From assembly GCA_025716815.1 (NCBI GenBank), contig JAIXMN010000003.1, forward strand, positions 868,001-932,000: a stretch of DNA of 64,000 bases, given 5' to 3'. Of this stretch, positions 1,633 to 48,538 are shown piece by piece (the stretch's first letter is position 1; the number at the start of each line of letters is the position of its first letter). Position numbers and translations under genes: made by a program. This DNA is from Dichotomocladium elegans. Lineage: Eukaryota; Mucoromycota; Mucoromycetes; Mucorales; Lichtheimiaceae. The notes beneath the pieces were generated by a model. It was not told the origin of the DNA and made no database searches. It saw only the letters and a program-made list of their open reading frames with translations.

Positions 1633-4600
1633 TCAATGGTGGGGTGTTATAGGGCGAAAATCGGAGGAGGGATGCTGGTTGGGATATGGCAGATAGCCCT
1701 GTTGAGCATAAATAGATGTGGGAGGAATATTGTGTTGTTGCTGTAACTCGTTGTAATCATGATGCTGGTGTATATTGGTCGATGCACTGGATAGATTCGA
1801 GTGTTTCATGACCTGCTCCACCTTCTTCAAAAAACTCTTCGATGAAAGATCGATGGCCTCCTTCGTCAGGTCAGGGTCTTGCAGGAACGGCTCAAGGTCT
1901 TCGGGCACCAGGCAGAAGTCCTCAAAGGACTCCAGCATCAGTTCGATCACCTCAATGGACGTGAAAGACTCGTCTTTCAGTGAGTCCTTAGAAGTACTCG
2001 TCAGTATGTTAGGCGCAATCACGCGGGCAAGATTGGGTATATCCATGCGGCTGCCGACGTCTGTAGTCACATGGGAGAACGAAGCAACCCAACGGAAGAA
2101 TAAGAACAGCACCTCTACGGCATCCCGGTTCACTCGCGGGAGCATGCAGTATCCGAGCTGGAGGACACGCTTTCGCGCGGCAAGGCTCTCGAGCTTCAGT
2201 GCGCTCGTGAATAGCCCATGCATCTTGTATGTCAAGAGCGGATCAGGCAGCTCGCGCAAAAACTTCTTAAGTAAGGCCGCAATTTGAATGGGGCTCTCCG
2301 CGAAGAGATCGACAGCTCGCGGATCCTTATCCAGTTTCTCGGTCAGGTTCTTGAGCTCGCGGATGTTGCCGTTCTTGCGGAAAATGCCCTCCACAGATAC
2401 ATCTACAACATCCTAGTATGTGAGCAAACTATCTTTCTCTCTCTCTGCTTTGCGCTCAAGAAAACATTCAGTCCTTACCCATCTGTCGCATGGCTGTGAC
2501 CGAATCATCAATAAAAGCTGCCACACGAACCGGCGATGCAGATGCTCCCAGATTAGATTCAACGCCTGTGCGTTCCGTCAGGATATCCAGCGGAACACCA
2601 AAGGTGCCCACATCCTTGACTTTGGGCTTCTTGTTGCTCGGGAACAAGGACGCAAATATTTTTTCCCAGATTGACACCTTCTTCGTCTCAATCATCTGCA
2701 AGAGATCATTCGGAGAGAAGAAGTCATGAACATAAGACTCGATCTGGACTGCTGCCACATGTCGTATGATCATGTCCTGTAATGCTGAGAGTTCAGAGAG
2801 ATACACTCGCGGGCGGTCTGTATTTGCATTTATGGGGGTATGGCCCACTCTCAACAACGCCGGTGACTCAGTCACTGTGCGGGCGACCTGCGGCACATCG
2901 TCCAGTCTTATGCCCTTCGCATATTCCTGTTCTTCTTTTGCGATCTCCTGTATGGATTTAGGCAGGCCATTACGTCTAACGAGGCTGTCTTTACGGACAG
3001 GCAGCGGCCGAACGATCGTCTTTTTGCTTTCTGATATTGACGGGTAAGCTTTCTCTGAGAGATCTGCGTTGCCTAAGATAGTCGCCCGCTTTGCCGACTT
3101 GAAGGACCGCGAGACTTTACGCTCGACACCATTGTCAGCCTGACCGGTGTACGAATGGTCGTTTCCGCTGACCGGTTGGGGTGTGGGTGGGTCTTTAATA
3201 TATGTAGAATGTGTTTTGATTGAGAAATCAACAGATGACAGTTGAGCGTCTAGATGGACACACTCCACATTAGTACCCTTAACCATTCATAACGCAGTCG
3301 TAAATTACCGGTAATATTTAAGAGGCTACATAGGCGACTCAGGGCCACTCGTAGAAGATATGCAAATTGGGTGAGCTTCGTGATGTGCTGAAACTCGGTG
3401 GGTTCATCTGTATCGTTTATATTTGCACAGCTCTTGCAGATGATCGACTGCGCAGCAGTACTGAACGTGGCCGAGGACAAGCTGCTCGCCAGCGGCTTTT
3501 TGCATTGACGACACACAAAGCATCCTGTATGCCACCTGTATTCTCCGTATCGAATACATTCGTCTTCTAATGTAACTTTGCATGTATGGCAAAGATCTGA
3601 ACTTGGTGCAGCCTTTACAAGGCGTTGACTATCTCGGCTAAATCCTTCTTTCCCGGCCACTTCCATAAGGTTATTTAGAAGCGACGCTACTGCAATTGGA
3701 CGACCCAGGATCAATTCCTATATATATCATTTCCCCATCGCGCCAAAAAAAAATCACAAAGAATTCCAGGGAGGGGACTCAGTCTTTGCATGAACAAGCT
3801 TACCAATCGTAGAGCCTTTGTTAGCGATATACGAATGAGGATTTTCAGATAATGGGCCAATCCAGTGACAAGCGAGAGTAATTCCTGCGTGATACCCAGT
3901 CTTCTCATCTCCTGCGTCCTTGACAAGAGAGAAAAGAAATTGATGATCTTTTTGCAAAGCATCTTCGCTTCGCGCGTGTATTTGAAATCTACGATGTAAT
4001 TCCGTAAACAAGCAAAACTCACACAGCGAGGTATCTAAGTGTCACTCACCTGCTTGGTCGTAGTTGTGGTAGATTCTTTCCAATTCATCAACACCAGAGA
4101 AAAGGGCTTCGACATGGACAAGGAAGCGCTCAGAGAGACAAATGCCTTCAACGTAAGCACCGTTTGACACATGGAGAAGCATCTCCGAGATGCATACAGC
4201 CGAGGATTCTATTTCAAGTCAAGTTATCTCCTTGAACAGTGTCCCCTTGTTTGCTCCGTTGTCCCTGAATCCACTCACCTTCGAAAGCCGACAGAACCGT
4301 CCATATGCGATATACCTTTTCCTCCGTAACTCGCTGTCGCTCGATAAGCTCGGCTTCGTTACTGGGAACGAAATCTATCCACGCATAAATTAACCACAGT
4401 ATAGAAAACGACGGAGAGAAACAGGGGAGGCTATTATCGTACCCTGGACAATGCTGACATCGGTGTCTCGTACCTTAGGATCGGCGACTTTCACGTTCCA
4501 GTACTACAAAGTCAGCCCGAAAGTACAGTAGAGCAAAGTCAGTCGTCGGATAGGACCGGTCGAAGTCGTGTGGTAAGACAAAATAAAACGTCTTGTGATA

Positions 4601-12961: not shown

Positions 12962-13918
12962 TTAATTGAGAAGATTTTGGATTTGCATGACGTGGGATGG
13001 AGACGAAGAATATGATCTGTTTGGTGGAGAAGGTTGAGGAGGTGATGGTGCTGATGATAGGATAATAGGTGACTGTATGGGATTGGAGGGTAAATCAAGG
13101 GCGGTCGCTTCCGAGCTTAACGCCTGCTGTGATGTCGATTCTGATAATGAAGGTTGCCGCTGTTCATCTCCAGAGATCTTCATCCTTATCTCGCGAGGTT
13201 CTTTCCGCCGCGATATTGAAGTCATTCCTCGCGCGAAGGATCCATTTTTGAATTTTTCCATATAGCTCGGATCCACGGTCCAATACCCGCCCTTGCCGTG
13301 CGGACCAAGCCCGTCCATCTGCACCTTGGGGATCTTTTTGAAGCATTGATTGAGAGACAGGTTGTGTCGTATGGTGTTCTACACAATCAAGAATCGCCGG
13401 TCAACGGATTGAAAGGGGAGGGTCGTTTCAAGATGTGGGCATTTGATTACCTGCCAGCCCGTATCATTAGCGTCGTAAAGCGCCGGGTACTTGTCCATGA
13501 TCCATTTATATATTTCCTGAAGCGTCATGCGTTCATCTTCTGACTCGAGGATGGCTTGTGCTATAAGTGATGAATAAGAGAACGGTGGACGCCGCCGCTT
13601 GCGAGGCGGTTTGACAGAGTCGGGTGACACGGGAATGAAGGATTCTGAGACGATGAATTGCTGTAGTTGCTGTTGCTGTGCTTCGGAAGGATATTGCTTT
13701 ACTGAGGCAACAAGGCGGGGATGCCGTAATGCAACAGGAATGCGAGGTGGGTACTCGACTGCAGTATTTGGAGGTGTATTTAACGGTAATCGCAGAATGT
13801 TCATGTGATGGCATTGTGAATTTGTACGGTTGACTTTGGCACTGTTGCTTCTGGCACTATCACTGCTGCAGCCACGAATGTCAGGAATGAAACTAGACGA
13901 ATCGCCGAACTGGGTCAT
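12962..13918 (-). CDS. Forkhead (winged-helix) transcription factor
   Basis: Two exons. Exon 1 (13918 to about 13453) begins [10 protein letters not shown] and has a Pro/Gln-rich N-terminus, a basic PRKRRRPP patch that may act as a nuclear localisation signal, and the first half of the forkhead domain ([31 protein letters not shown]). Exon 2 (about 13380 to 12962) resumes exactly in the recognition helix, [17 protein letters not shown], then [10 protein letters not shown] of wing 2. The C-terminus is Ser/Pro-rich and ends NLLN plus stop. The protein is about 295 residues with the domain central. Fungal forkheads control the cell cycle (Fkh, Sep1), ribosomal protein genes (Fhl1) and other programmes. 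No FHA domain is visible, so this is not an Fkh1/2 or Fhl1-type protein. Paralogue assignment is not possible by eye. Confidence 0.9.
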
Positions 13919-15908
13919 TCGGTTTTAAGAGAGATATGGAACAGGGAAGATACACAGAGACTTGTACCATATATGAAAACTTTTTTTTTACGTTTCCTCC
14001 ACGGCTATACCCCGAAAAAAAAAGCAGGCAGATACAGTGGTTTCTTTATCTTTTTGGGTGTCAGACCTTTTAAATGCCCGAGAGACAGAATAAGAGAGGG
14101 GCAATGAACAAAACAACCGGGAGTCGCCGAAAGCAGAGCCACCCCATCCAACCCATATTTTTGATACCAAATAGGATTGTGCTCTCTCTCTCCTTAAGAA
14201 TCCAGTCTGTAAAAGGATCAAGTGACCGTGGCCCTGGAGTCTTATTTGCCCACTTCTCCCGGACGTGTTTCCCTCACCCCGCACACCTCCCTTAATGCGT
14301 CACTCTGCAAAGACAAGTGAAATCACACTAATTTGGTCAAACGGATCACCTGATCTTCACCTATTAGAAACTCTACTTTCACTCTTCCCAATTACACACT
14401 TTTCCGAAATCATAAGTCGCATGCCATCATTAGAAAGCAATGTATTGAGCTACCGTCGGCCAAACATAACATGGTGCATATTATATGTGGCAGCCCATGA
14501 CTCACGCAGGACAACGAGTCTGCATTATCGAAGCCTGTGTGGGGTTTGGAAGATCACAATGGACAGTCGAAATACGGAATAAGCTCGGCCGCAAAAACGG
14601 CAATATAAAAGAGGAAGCAGCAAACGCATTGCGGGACATCGAATACAGAAAAGGGCCCTGGGTTAACTGCTGGCTCTCAAGACATGCGAATGATTCTGGT
14701 TGTTGACATCGTTCGATGGTCGCCCGCATGCCCTTCGGAAGACTAAAATGCATAGACAAGGAGCTCCGATGGATACCTGAAACGGTTCCAACGAATGGTG
14801 GCTTGAAACACCACGTTCTGGGGAGGAGGTGGGTCCCGTTGCCAGATTAAAAAGGGCGGGAAAAAGGAGGGGCCTTCTTGTCGAAAAGGCGAGACTTCCC
14901 CAAACGACGATGGTTGGGTTCTAGAGGCATCAGGAGAATATATTTTCCATAGAATTTGCAGAGAGGCCCGGTGCTCGGTGGGGGGGGGGCGGGAGCCATG
15001 CCAGTCCTTTTCCATGTCGGCGGCTCTCGTGGGCCATGAAGTAACCCCGCATCGTAGAGCAGAAAATGGGCATGGGAGAGACACTTCTCCCGTCTGACCC
15101 TGGGGCTGAGAACCAAGTTTCCTAGAGAGTTGGTCATATCCGAATCTTGTTGGACCTCTGGTTCCGCATTCGGTGGCGGCCTTCTCATCACGGGCAGCAA
15201 TAGCTATCTGTTTCCTTCTGGTCGACAGAAAGTTCCTAATCGAGGGCTACTCAAGCGAACGATCAACTGCTCATGACTATGCGGCTGGAAAGCCGTTCCT
15301 CATGGCTTGTTGCAACGAGCATACGTAGTAACCTGGACGAGGTGTTACGGATCGGGCTACTCTGGCGCGCGGCACTGGGGTACCTGTCAGCCCCACTACC
15401 CACCTCCCCCAATAGTTCAACTATTCTTCACAACCCGCTGCCCGCGGCGGGGGGAGGGCAAACGGCCTTTCGTTGGTTCCGTTTCAGGACGTAGTTCGAG
15501 ATGCTCCGTTGGGGGTGATATCCATTAGGCCTATCATTGTTTGGAGAAGGATCAAGAAATTGATTATAGAGCTGGAGCAAGCAGGCTTTTTTCTCTATTC
15601 GTGTTGTTGAATATGCTACGGCAAATCTGTGAGGATGTGACTTCAAGCACAGACAATGGTCCAACAATCTGCCTCGCGGCTTCTGTATTTCTTTTTGGTA
15701 CCTCTGATGTAAAGTCCACTAGAGAGACAGGCCCTACAGACAGAGGGGATGTTGAAGTCTCTTTCACAACTTTCATGGCTATTTTTATTGTCTTTGAGAT
15801 ACTGCATACCATGGGAGAAACTGTTCATTGCATGAGAATATCATAAAGTACGTATTACATAGTCGAATGAAATCAAATCTATTTTTACATAAAGAATCAT
15901 AAGATTTA
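13919..15908. other. Gene-poor interval upstream of the forkhead gene
   Basis: Two kilobases without a recognisable gene. Several 60-117 residue frames exist, but none has a family motif, and some overlap on opposite strands. A G-run (about ten consecutive G) lies near 14980. The left part must hold the forkhead promoter and the right part the 3' UTR of the GATA gene. Confidence 0.5.
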
Positions 15909-17792
15909 TTAAGGAGGCCGAGATGAAGGATTCAATGCTGATAGCTGGTGCTGTTGCTGTTGCTGTTGTTGGATCATATGTTGTAAGAATGCGGTCATTT
16001 CGCTCTGTTGGTGTTGGTGTTGCTGCTGGCGCTGTTTATTCATGGCATGATAGTTGGCTGCTGAGGCGATTAGAGGAAGGACTTCTGGCGGTAAGCTGTT
16101 GAGCTGGGATCCAATGGCCTCGAGGACAGCATAGACATTGGGAGGGAGCGGATTCTGGTGCGATGGCGGCGGAGATCCGCTCGCTGGAAGATATGAAGAC
16201 GGTGGCGAAGGAGTAGATGCAGTCGAGTATGAGGGAATGCGTCGTTGCCGCTTTGAGGTGGTAACGGCTGTAGGCGAGGAAGTGGTAGTGACGGCAGAAG
16301 CAACGACTGCAGCAGTAGAGGAGGACGAGGAGGAGGGGGGCGAGGATGATGCGTTAATGTGTGTGGAAGTATTAGGTGCTATGCTGAGGGCGCTGACGCT
16401 GCGACGGTGCTGGTCGGTTATGGATTTCGACTTTTGCTTTGCACTGTTGGCCGCACTGGCACTGGTGCGGTTACGCTTCTTGATGACGTCGGTTTTTAAA
16501 CTGAGAGGACGGACAACGCCGTGAAGTTTGAGGAAAAGACCACAGGCATTGCATAATGGTTGCCCTTGAGGATTGCGGCGCCAAAGAGGGGTTGTAGTGG
16601 TGCTACAGTTGGAGCACTTTGTCTTGCCGTCGCTAGTGGACAATTTACGGTTGGCAGTAGAAGAAGAGGCAGAGGATGCAGACGGTGGTGGCTCATTGAT
16701 AGATATCGGTGGAGGCGACGGCGACTGGTCTCCATGCAGGTTGTTATGTGATGACAATGGCTGCTGGTGGGGATGATGAGGCTGAATGCTGTTATTCGAA
16801 AACAGGGTCAAAAGCTCTTCAAAGCTTAGGCTCCCGGCGTTCAGTTGATCTTGTAAAAGAGGATGGTCAGGCGACATAGGAGTTGCAGGTGCTGAGGACA
16901 ATGGCGAACCAGAGAGTTCATAGTAAGGAGAGGGTGGGGAATAGAGACTGCTTGTCTGTGGCAGCATGTACTGTTCTGAGACGCTTGAGGGCGCAGAACC
17001 TGTATCAAAAGGGGGATGGTGCTGGTACAACGGATGGATCTGTGATTCGTGTGTAGAAAAGGCTGTAGACATGCTCCGATGGTCATATTGAAGCCGTCCA
17101 GGAGGCGGATCGTGCATAGCTGTAGATGGAAGAGCAGTGCAGTCGTAGGATGGTATGGGGATGCTTGTGCTTGGTGATAGTTGGGGGGAATGGCCCGCCC
17201 GTCGCTTCGCAGGCTGGGACGGATGAGAGACATGTAAGTAGTTGTTTTGCATGGATAGCTCCTCCTTTGCCAAACATACCGTACAGTGATGTAAATTGTC
17301 GGCACGTGCACTTCCAGTGACCATCACACTCTTGGGCTCGTATTCTTCTCGCAAAAAGTCCATCATATAGGGTGGAGCCGATGACGACAAGAGTCCAATT
17401 GTGTCATCGGGGATCGGTGGCTCTACTGAAGATGTCTGCTTGATAGCAATGGATTGTGCCTTTGGCCTTTCGATCTCTTCGATCATCTCCTCATCGTCGT
17501 TGTTACTCTTTTTGTCATTTTTATCATCATTGTTGTCATCATCATCCTTCTTTTTGTTCTTGAGTGTCATTGCCATCATCCGCCACGTCAGGTTTTCGAG
17601 ACGTGTACCATTGGGCAGGTTGTCCTTGGCCTTTGTGTACATCCTCCAGACTCGGCTCGCGAGCGGGTCTTTTTTGCCTTGCTCGTCGTCGACAGGCTCG
17701 CCCGCGGATTCAGACGAAGCTGGGAACAAGGGATCTGCGAGGATCTGGTCAGCAATGACTGATATTTGCTTGTTTTTGTCCTTTTGCGGCAT
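15909..17792 (-). CDS. GATA transcription factor, AreA/Nit2/Gln3-type nitrogen regulator
   Basis: Single 627-residue open frame without introns. Near the N-terminus (about residues 42-78) it has [17 protein letters not shown] and [12 protein letters not shown], the conserved N-terminal block of fungal nitrogen GATA factors. An acidic Asp/Asn/Lys stretch follows, then a long Ser/Pro/His-rich region. One GATA finger lies around residue 390 (CSNC-x17-[23 protein letters not shown], then [20 protein letters not shown]). This loop and C-flank match AreA/NIT2. The C-terminus has poly-Ser and poly-Gln/His runs. AreA-type factors activate permease and catabolic genes when preferred nitrogen is scarce and bind GATAAG. 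A likely target, the ammonium transporter at 62.6 kb, has several such sites. The assignment rests on the finger plus the N-terminal block. The exact orthologue is not proven. Confidence 0.9.
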
Positions 17793-20637
17793 AACGGAGA
17801 GTAATACGAGGATAGTCGAAAAAGTGGGGGAAGAGGAGGAAGCAAGGAAGGAAGAAAAAGGCCGTGTTTTGCAGATGCGTAGTCTCGGAGAGGAGCGATT
17901 TTTTTTATGTTGCGCCCCAATTTTACAATACCAAGGACCATCCGTTGCTGGGAGGCGAAAAGGGAGAGAGCGCGGTGAGCTTGCCGATGGAATTTAAATG
18001 TCCGCGTCCGACTTACAAACGGGTATCACAACCAAACACACATGTGGGCGGGATGGGGGAGCCACTGGCGAAAAAAGGAAATTTGTTGATAAGGCATGAG
18101 GTGTGTCTTGGGAGTGGGGTCTCAGCTTACAACCTTCTCGCACAATTTTCTAACTCTTTAGAGATCAGCCCGATCGTCTCCGACTGAGATAAGAATACAA
18201 GATGCAGGCGCGTCATCGTAATGCAGAGATCCCTCGTTGCTGCTTCTGGCGGCTGGTGCTGCCATTTGTTTTGCTTCAGCTTGCCTTTTTCATAAGGAAA
18301 CAAAGCAAGTGCGGAGCGTACCCCCCTACTTCCCCAGTCTTTGCCTGTGACCAACTCATTCTTTCATGTGTTATCTTATACGATTAGATGGTTACAAGCT
18401 TTATCAGCTCTCTTCCTAAATAATCCTTATCTCTCATCCGTTTTCAGAAAAAAAAGTTCGTGTCACGATGGATTCCGTTCTTTTCAGTCGTCACATGAGA
18501 TCGCACTTTGCTTCCCCTCTCGTATATCCGTCTACTGCTTGCGGACCTGAATACATACTCTCTCCCTCCCTCTCTCTCTCTCATACTTACACGTGTTTAG
18601 GGTAGCAGAGACATTATTTCCTTCTCTCTCGTTATTTAAGCCAATTCTTCTTAGCTTAAATTCGGCAGATGGATCATTTACCTGTATTAATGATGCATCC
18701 GACATTTGTTCCTATGCAACTGCATGCTTGAATCCACCATCTTTTCTCGTCCTCTAGAACCTGCATTACAGGTAATATTGCGATGAACAGCAACCGATGA
18801 TCATCTGACACGGCAGTCGTTAACCAAAACTGGGTCGGGTGGTTTCTTCAGATGGTAGTAATAACAACAATAACGTATACGTGGAGGCGGATGGTATGGC
18901 AACAACTGGGTAGAACGTCACCACCATATTATATGGGAAATTTCTTTCGTCAGTTGCTCGCACTGCTCATCTTTATTTCTGCTCTTTGATTAAAATTAAA
19001 CATATCACCGCAGTTCTCATTAGTTAGCTTTTTTTATTTGCATTAGAAAACATCCGCATCAATCCCAAAAAAGAAAGTCAACCACCAATCGGCGAAAAAT
19101 GATCACAGACGCTTTTGGTAATGATTTACTTGGAATAAAAGATAAGATAAGCGACGATGTCAGACCAGACGGGTACAGATGGCACTGAGTATGCGGACAT
19201 TCACATGAAGCACTTTTTCCTTGGCAGGAACATGCCGTTGAGAGAAGTGAGATACTAAACAAAAGAACAACAGGTCTACAGCTATACTTTACTAGTGCTC
19301 GTGGGTTAGAAAAACCAGATGATTACCAAAGGAAGAAAAGCTTGCATTCCCACAAGTCCTTCCCCCACCCTGCTGGCGACCATGAACATGCACTTTTAGC
19401 GCTGAAAGGCGTGCGTCACTTTTCCGATGTGCGAGACATTTGGTACCCTAGATACTTTCATCAATTCGCCGCCATCGCTCGAATAAGCTTCTTATTTAAA
19501 GTATGATCGTGTGACTTGCTAGGTAGTAGATATGTCTATATGAGTTAAATGCATGTGACTCAGCAACAACACTGAAGTACGTATTGCATAATCACCAGAG
19601 TATCAGAATGTATACCTTAAAACAAAGTGGCATGAGCCATGTAATTTATGCTCGCGTATCTTTATGCTCTTGTTACAAGAAGACTGATATGTATAGAAAC
19701 AGAGGGACTTGAAATAGCCTGTTGTTATTGTGAATCATCTTATCAGGTCTCCCATTCACGTTTAAACATCCGATGTATCACGTCATATTACGCCCGGATA
19801 TTAGCCTATCAGAGTGGCTCTATAATTTGAAATCCTACGACTGCTGGTTCTCATACGTTGGTCAATCTTAACAGTAAGCAAGCTCCATAGAAGAGACAAG
19901 ATACCAACCGGAACCGCTTTCCTTTCCTTCCGACCCCGCTCTTCGCCAGGCTGCTCCTTCCTGTTCGCTCTTCTTAGTGCTACCCTTAGTCCATTGCCTC
20001 CCGACTATCGCCGGGCAGTATCAGAGCAAGAGCGTAAGATCAGAAGCCAACGCCTAATCCTTTTGATTTTCATATCCTTAGATCTATGGGTTTCTTCTCT
20101 TTGGTTATAGCTCTCTTTATACATATAGTCTATCAGCGGCATTGTATGCGTTAGAATTCCAGTTTTATCTTTCTCGATTCGCATGACGCGAAGATTCTGT
20201 TGGTACCTATTCAAGGCTACAGTGACCTGGACAGCAAATGTCAACATACCTATGGAGGCCTATTGATTGTCACCCTGGACTTGGTTATCTTACAAACATT
20301 ACTCCAATGAATTCCCGCATATAACGCACTGCCTTATTGTTGGTGAGCAAACCCTATTACTGTCATATAAACCTGAGCTTATACATATAACATTGTACAA
20401 GACGAGTCAGACGTTTGATAATGCGTTCGTAGACACTTCCGGAGGGATTGAGTTAGCCCTACGGGGATTATACAAAAAGCGGTCTCGCGATGAAATCTGA
20501 AAAGTTAGGAATAGGCTGTCTAATTTTTTTTTACGCGGCAACTTGCTGAATTCGCCATATGCGGACTGCGGCCACTGCCTTGAAATTTTAGAGCGTCCTA
20601 AGCAGACTCCGCAGCCACGTCCTTTACACAAGAACCG
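17793..20637. other. Long intergenic region (GATA factor / RBM22 divergent promoters)
   Basis: About 2.8 kb without a supportable gene. It separates the divergent GATA-factor and RBM22 genes. Pyrimidine tracts (ctctctccctccctctctctc near 18560) and AT-rich stretches are present. Only short motif-free ORFs were seen. Its length upstream of the regulator fits a long 5' leader or complex promoter, which is inference. Confidence 0.5.
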
Positions 20638-30689: not shown

Positions 30690-30860
30690 TCAACTCCTCG
30701 CACTCCTGCCATTTCTGGAGCTCGCAGGATCACAAAACTAAATCACGTTTTGCCCAGAAGACGCAGGATGACAAATCAAATGTCACATGCATCTACGGAA
30801 AGATGTCCCTTGGCAAGTCCATCTCTAAAAATTCGTCCTTTTGAGTCTTTTTCTTTTATA
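30690..30860 (+). mobile_element. IS630-family leader fragment
   Basis: It carries the leader string with ctcgcaggatcac, acgttttgcccagaag, acgcaggatgacaaatcaaa and tgtcacatgcatc before ggaaagatgtc. These match the leader of the 22.8-24.0 kb copy (reverse strand) more closely than the copy at 31.2 kb. No transposase coding follows. Confidence 0.6.
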
Positions 30861-31043
30861 CATGTTCACATTCCGCCGTCGCATCCGCCGCTGCTGCTCA
30901 ATAGCACCGGCTGCTTCCTTTCCTCCCTCTTCCGCCTATGTTACCACAATGGTAGACCTAGCAACCCTAGGCATAAGTTGAAAGGTAAGAAGGGTTGATA
31001 TTTTGTGTTGAGTAACGGGTAAAACTAAGCCTTCTTATTTATG

Positions 31044-31076
31044 CGACATTTTTATTTTTGAAAATAAAGTATGGCT
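31044..31076 (+). repeat. cgacatttttatttttgaaaataaag repeat, copy A
   Basis: A 33-nt string almost identical in composition and order to the last unit of the short tandem array at 35010-35086, in the same orientation and about 4 kb away. The two copies bracket the MITE and the Fanzor locus. It could be a transposon end or a common low-complexity tail. Confidence 0.5.
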
Positions 31077-31184
31077 ACTACTCATTTCCATCGATTATAT
31101 TTCCACATCCGTCTTTACTTATGAATGACTTCATGTTAAGCATGTATTGTAGCAGAAAGAGATAAAATATACACTATTTTTCAA

Positions 31185-31870
31185 AATTAAAAGTCGCACC
31201 CTGCCAGTTCTGAAGTCGCAGGATCGCGAAAATACAAATCGCATTTTTGCCAGAAATCTTTACGCATGATGACAAAGCAAATGTCAGATACATACACGGA
31301 AAGATGTCGCATATCCATCTCATCCTTATGACTCTTTCTCTTCATAAACTTTTACATTCTGAAATGAGCAATCTATTTTTTTACAACGATGGCCAAGATC
31401 ATGTCGTTGATAAGCGTGGCTGACCTGGATCTATGGACTATGTCATTGATGAGGAAATTTACTCACTTCAATCCGTTTGTTTTTACACTGAATATCTGCG
31501 TAGCATATCGTGCAAAGATAACCCTAAGCTTACTGCCACGAAGATTCCCAAGCGAAAGGATCCAGACATTCGGATAAAAGAAGCGGGGATCAAGCGCAGT
31601 ACACAGCGTACACTGACCAAGATAAAGCCAGATTTTTCAAAATGGTGTTTGAGGAGGTAATGAGTGCATCAGCTGCAGCAAAACAGCTAGGACTCCATGT
31701 TCGTTCAGCACAGCGATGGGCATTACAGTAAGAAAAGGACCCTGACAGCATTTTAAGAAACGTAGAAGCAGAGGACCGATCGTGTATTCTCAATGAAGAG
31801 CATTTATTATTCTAGAATGCAATTGTCGCTAAAAATAGCCGTACTCAAAAGAATCCTGTATCGAGAAGAC
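31185..31870 (+). mobile_element. Degenerate IS630-family copy
   Basis: The leader (AAGTCGCAGGATCGCG, then acgcatgatgacaaagcaaa) is followed by MDYVIDEEIYSLQSVC, TEYLRSISCKDNPKLTATK, then in another frame AAAKQLGLHVRSAQRWALQ with a stop, KDPDSILRN and CILNEEH. The motifs match the copy at 22.8-24.0 kb in order, with frameshifts and stops. The DDE domain is not present, so this is a dead N-terminal remnant. Sequence from 31.9 to 32.2 kb has no clear homology. Confidence 0.75.
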
Positions 31871-32260
31871 TAAGTTTATTCTTGGAAAGAACAAAGAACT
31901 ATCGGAGTGTGCTTGTCTCTTTTGTCAATGAGCCATTTAGCCTGGGGATTGTAACTCCGCCGCTGGTTATCAAATGGAATAATGAAGTAATGGCTTTCAG
32001 GAGACTCCTGTGTTCTCATTGTAATATTCAGAGAAATTATTCATTATGTACCTACACTTCCTGAACGTATGGATAAGGATGACAGCAGTGTCGTGTTTTG
32101 TTGTGTTGTAAGAGACTGAGAGAGTACGAAAAGAAGTACAATCTTCCTACACTACACAAGTGCAGGATATGTATCGAATTATTCTTGAGATGGTCTCTTG
32201 GAATTACTTGTCGGAATTGTTTGGGATTTCATTGTTGATTTCAGACCGCCCTCGCGTCGG

Positions 32261-32363
32261 TACAGTGGCCGCCCCTTATAGTGATACCCTCGGTTCCAGG
32301 AAATCGCATCACTATAATGAATTATCATTATAATGAATATCACTGTAACGAGCGGCCACTGTA
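32261..32363. mobile_element. 103-bp MITE with perfect 12-bp terminal inverted repeats
   Basis: Starts TACAGTGGCCGC (32261-32272) and ends with its exact reverse complement GCGGCCACTGTA (32352-32363). Similarity of the two arms continues inward (a shared AGTGAT after the TIR), and the middle is AT-rich. TA at each tip followed by CAGTG is typical of Tc1/mariner-pogo type MITEs inserting at TA. No ORF. It lies about 240 bp upstream of the Fanzor ATG. A pogo-type source element was not found in the window. Confidence 0.8.
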
Positions 32364-32604
32364 AAACCTCATTAAAGAACCCAGTGGGAAAAAGAAAAAC
32401 ACTGTGGAGATGGATCATTGCTGACACTATAAATAGTGATGCTCAAGCAAACTGTCCCTTTCCATTATCCACATACAAAACTAGAGCCCATACAGCCTAC
32501 AGAAATAACACAGCACCACATTTACGGTTGAAGGTAATACGGCCGCTTTCATACTCGTCTCTGCGATACTAAGAAATAATATACCCTAGGTCTTCACCCA
32601 CCAA

Positions 32605-34800
32605 ATGGCCCAACCCCACCGCCCCGTCATTCCCGAAGGCATGCGCACTGGCCACAACATTGACCGCACTGGCCGTATAATTGGGGTGAAATCGTCTATA
32701 CGGGGCATCAGCTGGCGACAGCAGTATCGTGAACGTCTGTATCAGTTGGTCGACCTTGTCCACAACACCACAACACAGGCGTACGCGTCCGCCAAATATA
32801 TTTTCATCAACGAGGCAGCGCGCGATCCAAATTTTAACATCCAGGAAAACATCACGGAGAAGTTCTTTTCAGAAGTTTGGCTCTCCATGGTTAACAAAGC
32901 CGAACGCCGCACCCAAGGCGAAACTGCCCGCATCCGAGAACTAATTAATCGCCACAAGGATGAGTACCTTCGGATATCCGGATACGACAGGCCTGCGTTC
33001 CCTTATTCCCAGCAATGTTCTTCTTATGAAGGCACCAAGATTTATACTGCTTACGTGAATAATGTCCACATGCGGTTCGGGCAACACCTTCGGCGTGTCA
33101 TCAATGTCATCCTGAATCTTCGTCAGCGAAAAGCCGTCCGCAAGCGAGAGTTAATCGCACATGGCCCAAGCCCCGATCAAGTACGCCAGGACCTTTATGA
33201 AACCATCACCCGGCATGCCACAGGATTCAAGCTAGCAATTGCCCGTCGAGGTGTTTTGAGGGAAGACATTAATGCCGAACCTGGATTTCTTCGGGAAGCA
33301 TACGATATCCTACAGCCTGTTTTAAACGCTTACCCCCGAAACCACCAATTCCAACACCAGAGTATCTATTACGACGCCAAGGCCAATCCTGTTAAGCATT
33401 TCAACGCCTTCTTCCAGCTTGCACGTGTTTGTCAACAGAACGGAATACGCGGATTCAACTGTTTTCCACTTCGTCGCTCGTGGTCACCATGCTACATGGA
33501 GATTGATACGAAAATCCTTTGCTACCATATCCTGGGCTGCAAAATGGAATCCCACACAAGCAATATGGAGTACTGGAGACGTGTTGAAAATCTGAAATCA
33601 AGAGCTTTCAAACACCAAGAATCCGAGCTGCTCCAATTCCGTGGGACTATTCACACTGATGGCGTCGGTGTTACTGTGTTCAAGAAGACAAATGGCCTTC
33701 AATCGGGTTTCGGACAGAGATTTGGCATCCAGAGCGAAGATATCGAGTACGTCGCCCCACAGATAGTCCGGAACGAAGACTATAGAGGACAATGGGTCAC
33801 CATTGATCCTGGCAGAAGGGACCTGTTGTATTGCGTTCATGAGAATTCTTCACCCGACAACCACCAGACCTTCCGATATACAAAGCAGCTTCAAGATCAT
33901 ACACGCAAGACCAAACGGTACCGCAGACTCCGAGAACGACTCAAAGTTAGAGCGGCCCGAGGTCGCGTTGGCTGAGCAGAATCTATCCCAATTTCAAAGT
34001 CATACGCTTTCCGTGCCCAACTACGACGGATACCTCGCCGCCAAGAACAGGGTCTCTGTAGTTCTCAAGTCTTTCTACACGACAACCACTACGAACCACC
34101 CGAACCCACGATTTCTTTCTCGAAAACTTCGCCTGTCAGCGTTTTACAAGAAGCAGCAAGCAGATGAAAAGCTTCTCGACTCTTTGAATGCGAAGTTTGG
34201 CAGTAGGTCCGTTTTCGTGATGGGAAATTGGTCTGCGCCGCATACAAGATATCACGAGCCTATCCGTGGTGTCGGCTTCCGGCGGCTGTTGAAGAAGAAC
34301 AATTGCAATATTTATTTGATCGACGAGTACAAGACAAGCAAGTGCTGCACTATATGTGACAATGAAAGCCTTGCTACCTTTAAAATGGTTCCTAATCCAC
34401 GCCCATATGGACGACCCGACAATCCGCTCACGATCTGCCATGGCCTGCTACGGTATGAAGGACGGGCATGTTGTGTTATATTTCCAAAAAGATTTTAATA
34501 TTTTGATGTTTTAATAGATGCACAAATCAAAACTGTACAGCAGGCATGGCAGAGGGTGTTTGTCAACCAAGGTTATGGAACCGGGATCTGGCGGCGGTTC
34601 TCAAAATGCATCATATCCTCCGGGGTCTTCGGGAATATGGTATCATCCCAGCAAGGTTCCAGAGAAGAAATGCTGCACAAGTGTCCGCAGCTGGTGGAAG
34701 ACCACACTCACCTGAACCAGAGCAGCGCAGCGTGAGACCACGACGGGCAAGGCCAGGAAGGCCACGAGGTGCATGCTCTGCCGGGTCAAGACGACCGTAA
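32605..34800 (+). CDS. Fanzor (eukaryotic TnpB-like RNA-guided nuclease), frameshifted
   Basis: Exon 1 (32605-34452) starts MAQPHRPVIPEGMRTG and has a helical, basic N-terminal half, then TIHTDGVGVTVFKKT (the TDG motif of Fanzor/TnpB) and the RuvC-I motif WVTIDPGRRDLLY with the first catalytic Asp. Near 33940-33950 the frame shifts by one base: the first frame reads RYRRLRERLK and soon stops at 33975, while the next frame continues ALAEQNLSQF, then FVMGNWSAPHTRYH, the RuvC-II region VDE-like LIDEYKTSKCCTICDN. A GT-AG intron (34453-34517) joins in phase to exon 2, CTNQNCTAG then RLWNRDLAAVLKM, carrying the last zinc ligands and the RuvC-III Asp. A basic tail ends at TAA 34798-34800. About 710 residues if the shift is bridged. 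Fanzors are RNA-guided DNA nucleases of eukaryotic transposons. The frameshift may be decay, a sequencing error or recoding. Confidence 0.88.
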
Positions 34801-34935
34801 CCCCAACCAAGAATTTTCCGCGTCAGTTATCGCTGACGCACCCAGGATAACCACAGCCCTTCGGGGCAAGACACCTTCCTTTGGAAGGACGGTGTGTTGT
34901 AAGTCAACGGGATTGGAGAAGGCGTAATGTTTTCT
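34801..34935 (+). ncRNA. Candidate Fanzor guide RNA scaffold (omega-RNA/fRNA)
   Basis: Directly after the Fanzor stop, three hairpins follow in tandem: GCGTCAG/CTGACGC (34820-34826 with 34833-34839, 6-nt loop); GCCC-TTCG-GGGC (34856-34867, a UUCG tetraloop); and CCTTCC/GGAAGG (34874-34888, 3-nt loop) with an outer ACA/TGT pairing. In Fanzor and TnpB loci the scaffold RNA lies at or overlapping the 3' end of the nuclease gene, with the guide reaching beyond the element end. The position and structure fit that rule, but homology to a known fRNA was not tested. Confidence 0.5.
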
Positions 34936-35009
34936 GCTGACTAACAGGGTTACATCCATGGATGCTAAATCTTTTTACCTATTGATACGATAAATTTATA
35001 TAATTCTAT

Positions 35010-35086
35010 ACGACATTTTTTCTTGTATTTTGCACGACATTATTTTATCTTGTTTACGACATTTATTTTTGAAAATAAAGTATAGT
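35010..35086 (+). repeat. Short tandem array of acgacatt units
   Basis: Three units beginning acgacatt start at 35010, 35034 and 35056 (spacing 24 and 22 nt), each followed by a T/A-rich tail. The last unit (cgacatttatttttgaaaat) is matched at 31044. It lies about 75 bp after the hairpin cluster and could mark the right end of the Fanzor element. Confidence 0.5.
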
Positions 35087-35302
35087 TATCACAGCCATGT
35101 ACAATTTATGCTGCCCAAATGCCTCCTTGAATCTGGCAATTTGTTGTCCGCTCTTGCACCACAGTTTTTTTCCAGAAAGACTGAATGATATAACAATAAG
35201 TCCAAAATACTCATATTACCTCATTGTATCCGCCTTACCTTGTACTCAAGGCCAAAAACCACATTCCGACTTCATCTGCGCATGTGGGACCACCACACAC
35301 TT

Positions 35303-37110: not shown

Positions 37111-37830
37111 CTACTCGCCGAAATATGTACACCACGAGTTGGCAAGTACACTCTCGCGAAGCTTTGCAGGATTGAGTCGATTTCTTGATGCTGGAATGTA
37201 ATGCTTTGCTCGTGAAAATGTGCGCTCCGAACCGACTGACGATGCTGGTATTGCCAGGTATCTGCGCGCCATTGTCTTCAGCTCTTTCCATTCGTTCACC
37301 TCGCCGCGCCAGTAGCTGAGAACAAGTTCCTGATTGACACCGTTTGTCTCATCAAATATACAATTGGCGGAGACGTATGCCTGCAGCTGGTCAGCAATCC
37401 TTTGCGGCCTCCTGATTAAGGCATCTGGATTGCAAATGGACGACTTATGACCAGCAATCGGCTTGTACGCTTCCCAGGTCGCTTGCACTTGCTCTTTCGC
37501 AACATCACCGAAGTGTCCCCAGTTCTTGTCCTCCCACCATTGGAATTTCAGCCGTGGATCCATAGCAGTCGCGACAGCAAAGGCATGTCCTTCGGCCTTG
37601 CAGTAGTAGCCTTTTAATTTTGCCCATCCACAGCGTGCTGCTTCTGGTAGCGCGGGCCATTCCTACGAATCAACATATAAGTTTGGTGTCTGGAATCGCT
37701 TCACTGTAACCTCGCTTACATTTTTCCAGTCCTCCTCAAAGTTTTCCAGATGGTCAAGCAACCGGTTATATGAGAGAATTACAAGGTTCAAGGTGAGTGG
37801 GAATATGTATACTAAATCGAGGCGCAGGTT
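37111..37830 (-). pseudogene. hAT transposase C-terminal remnant
   Basis: Two exons on the minus strand. An upstream piece reads LTLNLVILSYNRLLDHLENF, then EEDWKN. The downstream exon starts at about 37660, passes MDPRLKFQWWEDKNW and contains the hAT dimerisation domain: LVLSYWRGEVNEWKELK, then ARRYLAIPASSVGSERTFS and YIPASRNRLNPAKL. The BED zinc finger and the first catalytic Asp residues are absent because upstream sequence runs straight into the right sub-terminal repeats. It ends TYFGE plus TAG at 37111. Non-autonomous. Confidence 0.85.
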
Positions 37831-44540: not shown

Positions 44541-46349
44541 TTATGATGAAGGAGAGCTAGACATGGAGATCACTGACCAATGGCCAGCATCTCCGTTCGG
44601 GAGGATATCACATGCCAACCCCTTCCCAGAGGAGAAGGTGAATCCATCCTGTTGCCTCTTGAGTACCAGAGAGAGCTCGAGATATCGAGAGCCGTCTTGA
44701 CGGGTGACCAGGACGTCGTGATGGGATACTAGAAGGTCTTGTGTCGGCGGCAAACTCAGACGAACTTGGTTTCGTTGTTCGGCGGCCAAGAACTTCAATG
44801 GACCTTGGGAGCCAAGCCAGAATTCAAAGGGCTTGACATGCTGGCCTGTCAGTTCAATGATATGACTTAATGGCTGGTAGGTCACGTTGTCAATGAGAGG
44901 AAGGGGCATGATGCGGCGTGGGGGTGAAGGAGGCGGCGAGAGTTGCGCTGGTTTAATGGGATGTGATTGCTCGATGGCTTCCATGGGCAGACGTGGTGAA
45001 TGCATGGTTGGTGCGGGAGCTGTCGTGGAAATGGTAGCGGTAGTAGTGGCCGGTGTTCGCTCGTTGATTGTAGGCTCAATATAACTATACTCAAATTTTG
45101 CAATACCGACGATGGTCCAACAGAGATAGTCGTCGACTTGCTCCTGGTCGTCTGCAGTGAGTTTGGAGGTCCCAAATTCTAGCCAGGTAGCTGTGAGGGT
45201 ATTGTCCTCAGACGCTTTAGCACTCAGGTACACTGGTTCTGTAGATGAGGCCAGCTGCAGAGCGATTTTCTGCATCTGGCTGACGGGTCCACAGGCTGCG
45301 GGTGCGATGTTGCCCTTATCGACTTTGCGAATAATCATGGGGGGCGATTTGACCCCTGTCTGGGCATCTTTGAGTACAATCTCTGAACCGTAGTTGACGG
45401 GTGCACCTGCAGACGACGTCAGGTCATCCATGCATGTTGTATGGTTGCTTGGTTGACGGACGACGATGATGTCGAAAGGTGTCCATGTCGCGTTCTTTGC
45501 ACAGAGCTGGCCGCGCTCTGTTGTCATGTATTTGGTGCGTACCGTCTGAGAGTTGATACGGTTAAAGAGAGATACAGCGGAGTTGGCGGTGATGCAGCTG
45601 GAAACGTTACGTGCCTTGGACGTCTTCTTTGAAGGCTTGGAAATAATGGCGATCGGGCGCGAATAGAAAGTTACGTAAGGTTGGCTAGGAGGTGGTGGTG
45701 ACATGGTCGTGCTGCCAGTGCTGTTGCTCGCACAGCCGTGTGAAAGGCTGACGCGCAAGTGGAACTGTTTTGCCTTGGCTGTGCCGGTGACGTGCAAATA
45801 TTTGAAGCTTCCGCATTTCTCATCATCCAAAAGAATTTTCTGCTCTAAAAATCGGTCGCCGTTTTCGCAGACAACGGCCATTGAGACAAGGGGTTGCGAG
45901 GCCGACTCACCCTGAATGGAAACAATAGGTGGCGGGCACAGGAACCGTTTTTCTGAGCCGTATGATTTCTGGGCAACTGCTGCGTGTAAGCAGGTCATTG
46001 TGGTCATGGGATGATGATGATGTGGTTGCTGTTGTTGCTGCTGCTGTGGGAGCGTGAGTACACGGCGAATCTTTGTTGAGCGTTCTTGGAGTTCGTTGTT
46101 TGCCCATCGGCGTTTCTCTGCTTCAAAGGGATTCTTTGGATAATCTGAATCTAAAAGCGATTCAATGGACATGGAACGTGAGGTGCCTCTGCTGTTGAAG
46201 TTCGGATGCGACGAGGGGGCGGGGAGATGAACACTGTTCGCACAATTGACAGCGTTGAGGAGCGTGTCCATTGGAGACATGCCAATAAGCTGGATCCTTT
46301 TACTGGAACCAAAGGCTTGTTCTGATATTATACGTGGTTGTTGATCCAT
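44541..46349 (-). CDS. CSL-family (CBF1/RBP-J/Su(H)/LAG-1) transcription factor
   Basis: Single 602-residue frame beginning MDQQPRIISEQAFGSSK. After a Ser/Gln/His-rich N-terminus it reads CLHAAVAQKSYGSEKRFLCP, the hallmark of the CSL Rel-like N-terminal DNA-binding domain. MAVVCENGDRFLEQKILLD and GSFKYLHVTGTAKAKQFHLR follow. The basic KPSKKTSKARNVSSC block enters the beta-trefoil domain (ANSAVSLFNRINSQTVRTKY, TPFDIIVVRQ, APVNYGSEIVLKD, IIRKVDKG, DDYLCWTIVG). The C-terminal Rel-like domain is recognised from YQPLSHIIELTGQHVKPFEF and WLGSQGPLKF. Fungal CSL proteins (S. pombe Cbf11, Cbf12) exist without Notch and regulate adhesion, lipid and cell-cycle genes by binding GTGGGAA-type sites. A Pro-rich insert separates the trefoil from the C-terminal domain. 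It has no introns. Confidence 0.92.
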   Translation of the reverse strand: MDQQPRIISEQAFGSSKRIQLIGMSPMDTLLNAVNCANSVHLPAPSSHPNFNSRGTSRSMSIESLLDSDYPKNPFEAEKRRWANNELQERSTKIRRVLTLPQQQQQQQPHHHHPMTTMTCLHAAVAQKSYGSEKRFLCPPPIVSIQGESASQPLVSMAVVCENGDRFLEQKILLDDEKCGSFKYLHVTGTAKAKQFHLRVSLSHGCASNSTGSTTMSPPPPSQPYVTFYSRPIAIISKPSKKTSKARNVSSCITANSAVSLFNRINSQTVRTKYMTTERGQLCAKNATWTPFDIIVVRQPSNHTTCMDDLTSSAGAPVNYGSEIVLKDAQTGVKSPPMIIRKVDKGNIAPAACGPVSQMQKIALQLASSTEPVYLSAKASEDNTLTATWLEFGTSKLTADDQEQVDDYLCWTIVGIAKFEYSYIEPTINERTPATTTATISTTAPAPTMHSPRLPMEAIEQSHPIKPAQLSPPPSPPRRIMPLPLIDNVTYQPLSHIIELTGQHVKPFEFWLGSQGPLKFLAAEQRNQVRLSLPPTQDLLVSHHDVLVTRQDGSRYLELSLVLKRQQDGFTFSSGKGLACDILPNGDAGHWSVISMSSSPSS

Positions 46350-48538
46350 TGGATTTAATAAAATGTCTGTATGTTTATGTACGTTGTGGGGGAGAAGCGG
46401 AAGAGGAAGAGAATAAGGGGAAACTAAATAATCACCTATATTTATTGGATACTGATAAGATCCTGGATCTCATCACGTGCCCGCTCTTTCCCAGGGTACT
46501 TTCCCAGGATGTTTAACAATAGTCTTGGTCCAATATTTGCATGTGATTGTAATATTACTTTTGCCCAAAAGAACTACGGGTCGTATAAATACAAGATCGG
46601 TCATCGTTGGCGCAAACAGCTTAGTTGACCCATGCGAAAGTTCGTCACTACCGGTTGAGCGGGCGAGGCTATTGGCCAAAGATGGAAATGATAAGCTTTT
46701 GGAGAGATAAGAAGCTGTCTTTTCATTCGCTGTTGCCGATTTTTAGGGCCGTGGGAATCTTTCTCCACCTCCCAAATCCTCCCCCCCATTAAGCTGCTCA
46801 CAGATCCCGCGGCTTTTTTTTGGTCTTGTCCAATCACCACTACCGGCCTCATCCGTTCTGACTGTAATATATCCGGGTCGGACCTCATATAAAAAAGTAA
46901 ACCATCGCCACATCTCCCACTTTTGCTGATCATCATCTCGTAGTGATCAACCATGCTAGCTTGTTACCGTCGCTAAGTTATAACTTGGACCGCCACAGAG
47001 AAACGTGTGTGTATATGGAAGAGGAAGAGGCGGGGTACCCGATTCATTAATGAGTTCTACACTTTCTTGTACAAACGATAATGTAGCATCGGAAAATGAG
47101 GAGCCTCCTGATCTTTTTAGGAGACAAATGCTGCTCTTTGACATGAGATTTCATCGGTTGTGCAGCTGATCAAATACTTTGTGTCCAGTGCGGTGGTTGT
47201 CTGATCATTCGCGAATGACAGTGCGCGCATATGTGTATGTGTATGTGGAATTCAATTTACTCTAACGGTTTATGGCTAACAGGATATATACATCACACCT
47301 CTTCTACAAGTAGTGATGCAGTATCCGCGCCTTCAGAGAAGTTTGGGGGTTTACAGATGGGCATGGGTGAGTGGGGGTCCCTTTGTCTTTCCAACTGACC
47401 AATAGCGAAACTTTGTTCAATTCTAATTCGCCAGCCAATTGTGACTCATTCCCACCATTTGATACCATTCCACCAAAAAAAAAAAAAATATCGGATAATA
47501 AAAACGGCATGGACACAGGCCTGTCAAGGCTGGAATTTCACACGGTCTACATGCGTTGCCCAGCAAAACGACAAACTGGGAAACAGTTACACAACCGTAC
47601 TCACGTAAGACCTGGGTTAGCATTCGGATGATTACGGCGCTTATTCCTCTTCTCTTTTCCGTCCAAGTTTTCTTGGTGGTAGAAAAATAAATAATATAAT
47701 AATAACTGCGACCTGCCTATTCATTACGCTCTTATCAAAATGACGTGCGCCACCAGATGCTTCAGGAACCCATACCATGCGTGTGCACACACCCACTTCA
47801 TTCTTCCCCGTGTCTGCTCTCAAATTACATATATATTTATATTAAAGAACATAAAAGTCGGGTATAGGGGGGCCTAGTGGGTGCCACATGAAATAAATAA
47901 GCTTCAATTCAGCCATCCCACGTAATCCCGTCCTTCGTTAAGCAGCACAAAAATCTTCCTTTTTTTGTTTTATTTTTATTTTTTTGTGCGCATGAACGTG
48001 ACAAATTCCCCTTCTCTGCCTAAAAGAGTCCCCACACGATAAATCGCCGCAATAAAACAGCCAATGAATGTACTAACCGAGGAGGGTAGAAGACTGACAT
48101 TTAGTAACAAATTTCCCCGCCCTTTGCAAAAGAGAAAGTAAGAGAGACGCAAGCAATGAAGACATAGATATGCACTTGCACATGTTCATGTGGGTGTGGA
48201 AGTGTCGGATGCGATATCATGAACACAAACAAAATTGGGCAATCATGTGGTAAAGATAATGCAAACGAGCCGACCCCACACCTCTGTCACCCCCATCCAT
48301 CTCTCGGAACTGCAAGTGTTTTGCTTGCGGATGGCATACTCTTTTATACTATGACTGTATTATAAAATATTCCAGGTGGAGGAATGCATCCGGCGTCTTG
48401 TATTTTCTCCCATTCATCCCTCTGTTTATGCTATTAATAACGATAAGCATATGGTACGGCGTGAGAAAAACAATGAAGATCACATTGCTGGATGGGATAC
48501 AAAGTGCTGCAGGACATAAAACTGCTTCTTATTGGATA
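46350..48538. other. Intergenic region between CSL promoter and Sec7-PH 3' end
   Basis: About 2.2 kb, no gene recognised. ORFs here have no domain motifs. The left side holds the CSL promoter. Poly-A and poly-T runs near 47475 and 47960 occur. Confidence 0.5.

Follow-up and report, generated by a model that had tools for sequence, protein, structure and literature searches.

A Fanzor1 family on a transposase-less Tc1/mariner-type element of Dichotomocladium elegans, with a candidate omegaRNA and a possible TAM imprint in its insertion sites

Results

A decayed Fanzor1 gene in a mobile element

The window, by which we mean the whole stretch of 64,000 nucleotides analysed here, holds a gene which by homology is a Fanzor1 gene of two exons with the codons for the RuvC D/E/D residues, and which lies inside a mobile element (Table 1). 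Fanzor proteins are relatives of the CRISPR nucleases and cut DNA under the guidance of RNA. The element is surrounded by host genes for a GATA/AreA factor, a LAG1/CSL-type factor, and forkhead and RhoGAP proteins (window positions 15912-17993, 44544-46469, 13382-13924 and 1636-2412 (minus strand)), and a lysine-methyltransferase gene in the window has its closest named matches in Fennellomyces (71%), Zychaea (68%) and Phascolomyces (64%). Other mobile sequences are present as well. The C-terminal part of a hAT transposase (PF05699, 1.7e-13) lies on the minus strand at 37114-37662, while a small relic at 30698-31070, probably a MITE, stops roughly 100 bp short of the Fanzor element on its upstream side; it is similar to both the left and the right ends of the same element family, and by eye its tail looks like the last part of the guide-RNA block.

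Table 1. Features of the Fanzor element, in window positions
Feature	Position	Strand	Basis or remark
TA target-site duplication, left copy	31168..31169	.	TA in 27/27 left flanks with matching end motif
Family A Fanzor element, transposase-less Tc1/mariner-type, 3911 bp	31170..35080	+	Limits of identity with sister copies
Left terminal inverted repeat (TACACYATTTTTCAAAAT...), imperfect relative to right end	31170..31199	+	
Tc1-type transposase remnant, N-terminal part	31610..31810	+	By link through L005, L065 and L064
Fanzor1 exon 1	32605..34452	+	Frame lost between RuvC-I and RuvC-II in the window copy
RuvC-I catalytic Asp codon (IDPG)	33805..33807	+	Aligned with SpuFz1 and Parasitella Fz1
RuvC-II catalytic Glu codon (DEYKTS), in shifted frame	34325..34327	+	Alignment
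Predicted GT-AG intron, 65 bp	34453..34517	+	Splicing joins LLR to CTNQNC of the zinc ribbon
Fanzor1 exon 2: second zinc-ribbon pair, RuvC-III, basic tail, stop codon	34518..34800	+	
RuvC-III catalytic Asp codon (NRDL)	34585..34587	+	Sequence; NRDL in 16/16 intact copies
Candidate omegaRNA scaffold region, stop codon to right end	34801..35080	+	
Candidate stem-loop 1: 7-bp stem, UUAUCG loop	34820..34839	+	Pairing and double-sided changes
Second small hairpin, GCCC-UUCG-GGGC in family A	34856..34867	+	
Right-end hairpin UUUAUUU-UUGA-AAAUAAA in inverted repeat, adjoining putative guide	35062..35079	+	Sequence, computed fold
TA target-site duplication, right copy	35081..35082	.	TA in 36/36 right flanks with matching end motif
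Right flank: TR of putative TAM/scaffold junction, then putative guide	35083..35105	+	Inferred from site statistics

The TDG motif, WVTIDPGRRDLLY at RuvC-I, DEYKTSKCC and NRDLAAVLKM, on which the initial annotation had founded its call of a Fanzor, are all present where it had read them, with phmmer E-values far beyond chance. Searched separately, the window frame with RuvC-I matches the Fanzor1 of Parasitella parasitica (PpFz1) at 1.4e-80 and that of Spizellomyces punctatus (SpuFz1) at 9.1e-23, and the second frame matches the same two at 1.1e-31 and 5.3e-14; within E 1 there was one further match only, at chance level. Exon 1 of an intact sister copy, read slightly into the intron, reaches 8.2e-120 with the former and only 1.4e-43 with the latter, and the homology extends over most of the length of the characterised proteins. 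After splicing the gene has a C4 zinc ribbon (TNB), CPVC ... CTNQNC, which PF07282 matches weakly in Pfam (E 0.021); NCBIfam guided_TnpB scored 0.002, below its cut-off, and Pfam gave no match on the first window frame.

The claim that all three catalytic acids are kept holds for the codons, each of which is present, but they do not share one frame and the copy is broken. The frame of RuvC-I (32590-33975) meets a stop soon after that motif, a different frame (33767-34498) carries RuvC-II together with the initial half of the zinc ribbon, and the product spliced as annotated has its last residue at 456, before RuvC-II. Since intact sister copies are uninterrupted at this place, the break does not mark an intron. 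Judged by its reading frames the window copy is dead, the frameshift between RuvC-I and RuvC-II leaving it no usable active site. The stretch of about 390 residues before RuvC-I, which had been singled out as long, has the length described and is nothing out of the ordinary: an intact copy of 709 residues has its RuvC-I Asp at 401, and in SpuFz1 it is residue 383, the catalytic residues of that protein being given as D383, E541 and D606 (PMC11423790). The intron measures 69 bp in most sister copies.

Of 115 database relatives, the top match shares 47% identity across 98% of the query length and none exceeds 51%, so that the proteins form a Fanzor family without a close representative among these relatives. 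In a tree of 26 rows, which has no Fanzor2 or TnpB rows (both matched PDB sequences are Fanzor1), families A and B are joined (100/98), family C stands beside them (82/84), and the two Parasitella proteins fall apart from all three in another clade. PpFz1 (PDB 9cf0-9cf3) is the closest solved relative by sequence, from a host that also belongs to the Mucorales, but its FRI (cyclophilin-binding) insertion of about 93 residues (chain positions 1001-1095) has no counterpart in the family described here. SpuFz1 (PDB 8gkh) agrees with the family in its domain order, its RuvC acids and its zinc ribbon.

An element with Tc1/mariner-type ends and without a transposase

The element combines inverted repeats, which are imperfect (TACACYATTTTTCAAAAT... 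against the complement of ...TTTTTGAAAATAAAG), with a duplicated TA at its borders; the flank counts in Table 1 cover ends with a matching motif and leave aside decayed ends such as those of L043, L053 and L066. One nested insertion is informative on the length of the duplication. L032 sits in the right end of a relative, L065 (75% identical), and its flanks give a gapless alignment across the junction once one TA is removed, from which the target duplication is 2 bp, TA. Such a 2-bp TA duplication is that of Tc1/mariner elements. Duplications of 3 or 4 bp (TAT, TATA) were rejected in view of the variable right side after TA and the gapless L032 junction; the left side is TATA in nearly all ends read. 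The Fanzor1 homology and the mariner-type ends together bear out the earlier proposal of a Fanzor on a fungal transposon.

A DDE transposase was not found in family A, which retains only a short N-terminal remnant, and as relatives with the same ends carry DDE_3 we file family A as non-autonomous. The remnant, which we take to be the helix-turn-helix part, has by itself no Pfam match. It belongs to a decayed stretch that makes up the left 0.6 kb of the family A element: over its leftmost 600 bp, sister copy L005 has 91% identity with L065, where the sequence runs on into a DDE_3 transposase relic, and 90% with L064, whose transposase relic was recognised by eye only. At C57:1660083-1663557 (G000, of which L076 covers part) a divergent Fanzor, 52% identical and with an open frame of 609 aa, faces, in convergent orientation, an open frame of 475 aa that matches DDE_3, possibly a complete element with transposase and Fanzor. 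A sister element type (L146-L151) has CA (TATG on the other strand), not TA, before the left end in 6 of 6 ends read, and at L162:383 two elements stand end to end, one of them of family C and placed immediately at the TA that borders the left end of the other.

Fanzor1 genes are already known from mariner-type elements, Fanzor-only ones with TA duplications included, and the published lists of Fanzor1 families have entries for Rhizopus, Mucor and Phycomyces (PMC3627910). The same source describes PUl-4, a Fanzor1 without transposase between mariner-type inverted repeats and with a TA duplication, as here, although it belongs to another family; ROr-4, PBl-3 and MCi-4 from the Mucorales are MuDr-type with 9-bp duplications, unlike the element here. 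Its passages on Fanzor1-only Mariner elements make no mention of a guide RNA or of a bias in insertion sites.

Intact sister copies and selection

The assembly (39.4 Mb in 122 contigs) contains at least 100 matches to the Fanzor family (92 of 676 candidates scored) and at least 40 family A right ends (40 of 227 candidates scored). Thirty loci were read (L004-L033, L004 being the window copy). Start, donor and acceptor are all present in 25, which divide into 16 with an intact two-exon ORF and nine that are broken, the window copy included; the other five lack a landmark and stand unscored, among them L012 with an open frame of 639 aa, and the figure of 16 is thus a lower bound. Fifteen of the intact ORFs encode 709 aa and one 702 aa, for 14 distinct proteins, and IDPGRRD, DE[YF]KTS and NRDL occur in one frame in 14 of the 16, L015 lacking the second pattern as searched and L018 the first.

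The 15 copies of equal length are 98.7-99.8% identical in their coding sequence, with 45 synonymous and 36 nonsynonymous changes among them; pN/pS is 0.34 (p=2e-6, with a transition bias of 7 and an expected nonsynonymous share of 0.70), or 0.24 uncorrected. On these substitution counts the intact sister copies are under purifying selection. By comparison with them, the window locus is one decayed member of a recently multiplied family and not a lone locus.

A candidate omegaRNA between the stop codon and the right end

Beyond the stop codon, four element families share a UUAUCG loop on a 7-bp stem in equivalent positions, the stems being GCGUCAG in family A, GUGUCGG in B, GUCCUGG in C and GUCCCGG in D, with C (L162) and D (L065) represented by one sequence each. 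Across 37 sequences of the four families (38 loop-stem matches less L044, a chance match; 21 distinct rows), standard pairs fill 98.6% of 147 pair cells against 88.9% in shuffles, and none of 500 shuffles was as high. Changes on both sides are seen in five of the seven pairs, and pairing drops to 20-60% when the partner is slid by 1-3 columns. Single unpaired positions occur in two of the 37 sequences, the family A copies L061 and L068, and an earlier count on 11 sequences also supports the pairing. The right inverted repeat also has the form of a 7-bp hairpin, adjoining the flank, and at the place of the second hairpin other families have different small UUCG hairpins (by eye, uncounted). An Rfam search at the right end gave no match, and folding energies are mixed (z of -1.48 and -1.57 for the right-end region; -2.10, -0.41, 0.00 and -1.98 for shorter pieces), so that the case for an omegaRNA rests on covariation.

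As in OMEGA systems, a conserved RNA structure lies towards the element's end, with a putative first stem-loop of 7 bp. All three Fanzor1 complexes studied have a first stem-loop of 7 bp (PMC11423790), and PpFz1 and SpuFz1 are like the candidate here in this respect. We infer that the conserved stem after the stop codon is stem-loop 1 of an omegaRNA. A weak point of this reading is the spacing. In family A about 240 bases separate stem-loop 1 from the right end, and some 220 lie between the two hairpins, which implies an RNA longer than the published omegaRNAs of 75, 90 and 150 nt (PMC11423790), that of SpuFz1 being the one of 90 nt. Families C and D agree with A and B in having the RNA module at the right end, but their Fanzor gene lies on the opposite strand (L162; L065), and we read this as a probable flip of the nuclease gene inside the element; further antisense cases are known by their coordinates only.

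A pyrimidine bias on the putative guide side of insertion sites

The exact 21-bp right end, up to TA, occurs 161 times in the genome, followed by T in 90 cases and by another base in 71. We placed in a sense-Fanzor class those with a sense Fanzor or a family A right-end match at most 2.6 kb upstream among the matches listed, a class that also takes in a few more distant Fanzors. The base after TA in these copies is T in 44 and C in seven of 51, with no A and no G, and with one more Fanzor among the matches listed, at C28:758748, T 44, C 7 and A 1 of 52. The remaining 110 elements were rejected as a clean control, the group being mixed; apart from the one moved to the Fanzor group, they were split into 38 siblings, which combine the shared 21-bp end with DDE_3 or an antisense Fanzor among the matches listed (31 with DDE_3 upstream and seven with antisense Fanzor, two of which also have DDE_3), and 71 unclassified elements. 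The siblings have A in 23, T in six, C in five and G in four. Among the matches listed, T thus follows in 44/52 sense-Fanzor copies and 6/38 siblings (p=5.7e-11), and a pyrimidine stands on the guide side in 51/52 and 11/38. The unclassified elements show T 40, C 16, A 14 and G 1 among the matches listed, which counts against a bias specific to the Fanzor.

C24:649315 and C76:61807 have identical flanks, the one duplicate pair in the 60 of 110 control flanks checked, and 37 of the 38 siblings are independent as far as seen. The 36 distinct right flanks of Fanzor copies have T in 31 and C in five, against a background frequency of T after TA of 0.34 in the window, and a purine occupies the second position in 31 of the 36. 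On the left, in counts blind to an outward G, the outward base of Fanzor copies is A in 16, T in 11 and C in three of 30, and that of siblings is A in 17 of 19. The comparison of T at 44/52 on the right with 11/30 on the left (p=1.8e-5, among the matches listed) places the T bias of families A and B on the guide side only.

Family C is less clear. Its right ends with antisense Fanzor (n=10, Fanzor assigned by eye) have T in five and C in five, and all 29 right ends of its type have T 17, C 10 and A 2, neither count having asked for G. Its left ends, read by eye, have T in 13 of 16; this sample includes L160, which lacks a Fanzor among the matches listed, and omits L143 and L145 (end altered), L155, L158, L159 and L161 (end not found) and L146-L151 (other end type). 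As the left side is also T-rich, a transposase preferring ATAT could explain family C. Family C was also considered as a flip test of the T bias, a reading that was rejected because L162 has its RNA module at the right end too.

The TAM of PpFz1 is 5'-ATN (PMC11423790), and the TA-T-R pattern of the sites is compatible with a TAM of that kind; SpuFz1 differs, with CATA (PMC10432273). In the titles and abstract openings of the open-licence papers among the matches listed, we found no report of a TAM bias in Fanzor insertion sites.

Discussion

Two of the alternatives concern what the Fanzor and its RNA do at all. The nuclease could be a passenger, spread by the transposase alone and decaying as cargo, which would agree with the many fragments and with the broken ORFs in nine of the 25 loci that have both splice landmarks, one of the nine being the window copy; against it stand the 16 intact ORFs among near-identical copies and the pN/pS value, and we regard it as very unlikely. 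It is unlikely, though less so, that the covarying stem-loop is a terminator or a transposase-binding hairpin instead of part of an omegaRNA. Such a role would suit the roughly 240 bases that separate it from the family A right end, and its presence in L065, with a decayed transposase and antisense Fanzor fragments, and in L162, with the Fanzor on the other strand. Both of these elements also carry Fanzor, however, and the invariant UUAUCG loop, the exact 7-bp stem and the position towards the guide end fit stem-loop 1 of a Fanzor1 RNA.

The site bias is harder to assign. The Fanzor may be real and yet have left no mark on the location of copies, if two transposase lineages differ in their targets, one preferring TTAA and the other TATR/ATAT. 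The siblings, which favour A on both sides, family C, which is T- or pyrimidine-rich on both sides, and the 40 of 71 unclassified same-end elements with T among the matches listed would all agree with such preferences. Against this, the sense-Fanzor copies share their 21-bp end with the A-preferring siblings, yet have A on the right in 1/52, and a roughly twofold-symmetric complex should bias both sides, whereas the T excess is found on one. We consider a pure transposase preference a serious candidate that stops somewhat short of being probable, and a TAM imprint in the insertion sites is an equally tentative reading.

In the reading that we favour, the sequence of events would be as follows. 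A transposase acting in trans would excise the element and paste it at a TA. The omegaRNA would be a transcript that runs past the right end, made up in this order of stem-loop 1, the AU-rich right end and, as guide, the flank. Fanzor and omegaRNA would recognise an empty donor or allelic site beside a TAM formed by the duplicated TA and T (TATR), the Fanzor would cut this site, and repair would restore the element by copying. In this way an insertion at a TA that bears a TAM would be retained more often than others. Retention by RNA-guided cutting has been proposed from TnpB (PMC10432273, Discussion). IS607 TnpB/reRNA offers a precedent for the proposed TA-T as scaffold and TAM at once: its guide-RNA scaffold includes an invariant nucleotide of the right flank, which is dictated by the transposition target (PMC10711439). 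IS607 TnpB differs in being bacterial and recombinase-driven and in having another TAM.

A Fanzor1 family on a transposase-less Tc1/mariner-type element, with an omegaRNA candidate at the right end, is well supported by homology, element ends and covariation. Taken together, the evidence makes it likely that this is a new Fanzor1 family whose putative RNA-guided cutting keeps its transposon in place, cleavage, TAM and retention being read from sequence patterns. The guide-RNA structure and the insertion sites of the sister copies suggest that the system has been at work.

The many near-identical intact copies, together with transposase-bearing siblings that have the same end, permit a direct test at TAM sites of the role of Fanzor for eukaryotic transposons; copies of families A and B sit preferentially, and in an orientation-dependent manner, at putative TAM sites. 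A family that lacks the PpFz1 insertion and has an omegaRNA candidate is a natural subject for biochemistry. It is conceivable, if still short of probable, that the genome preserves a fossil record of Fanzor activity at TAM sites, and that omegaRNA and nuclease are separable modules that have been swapped in evolution.
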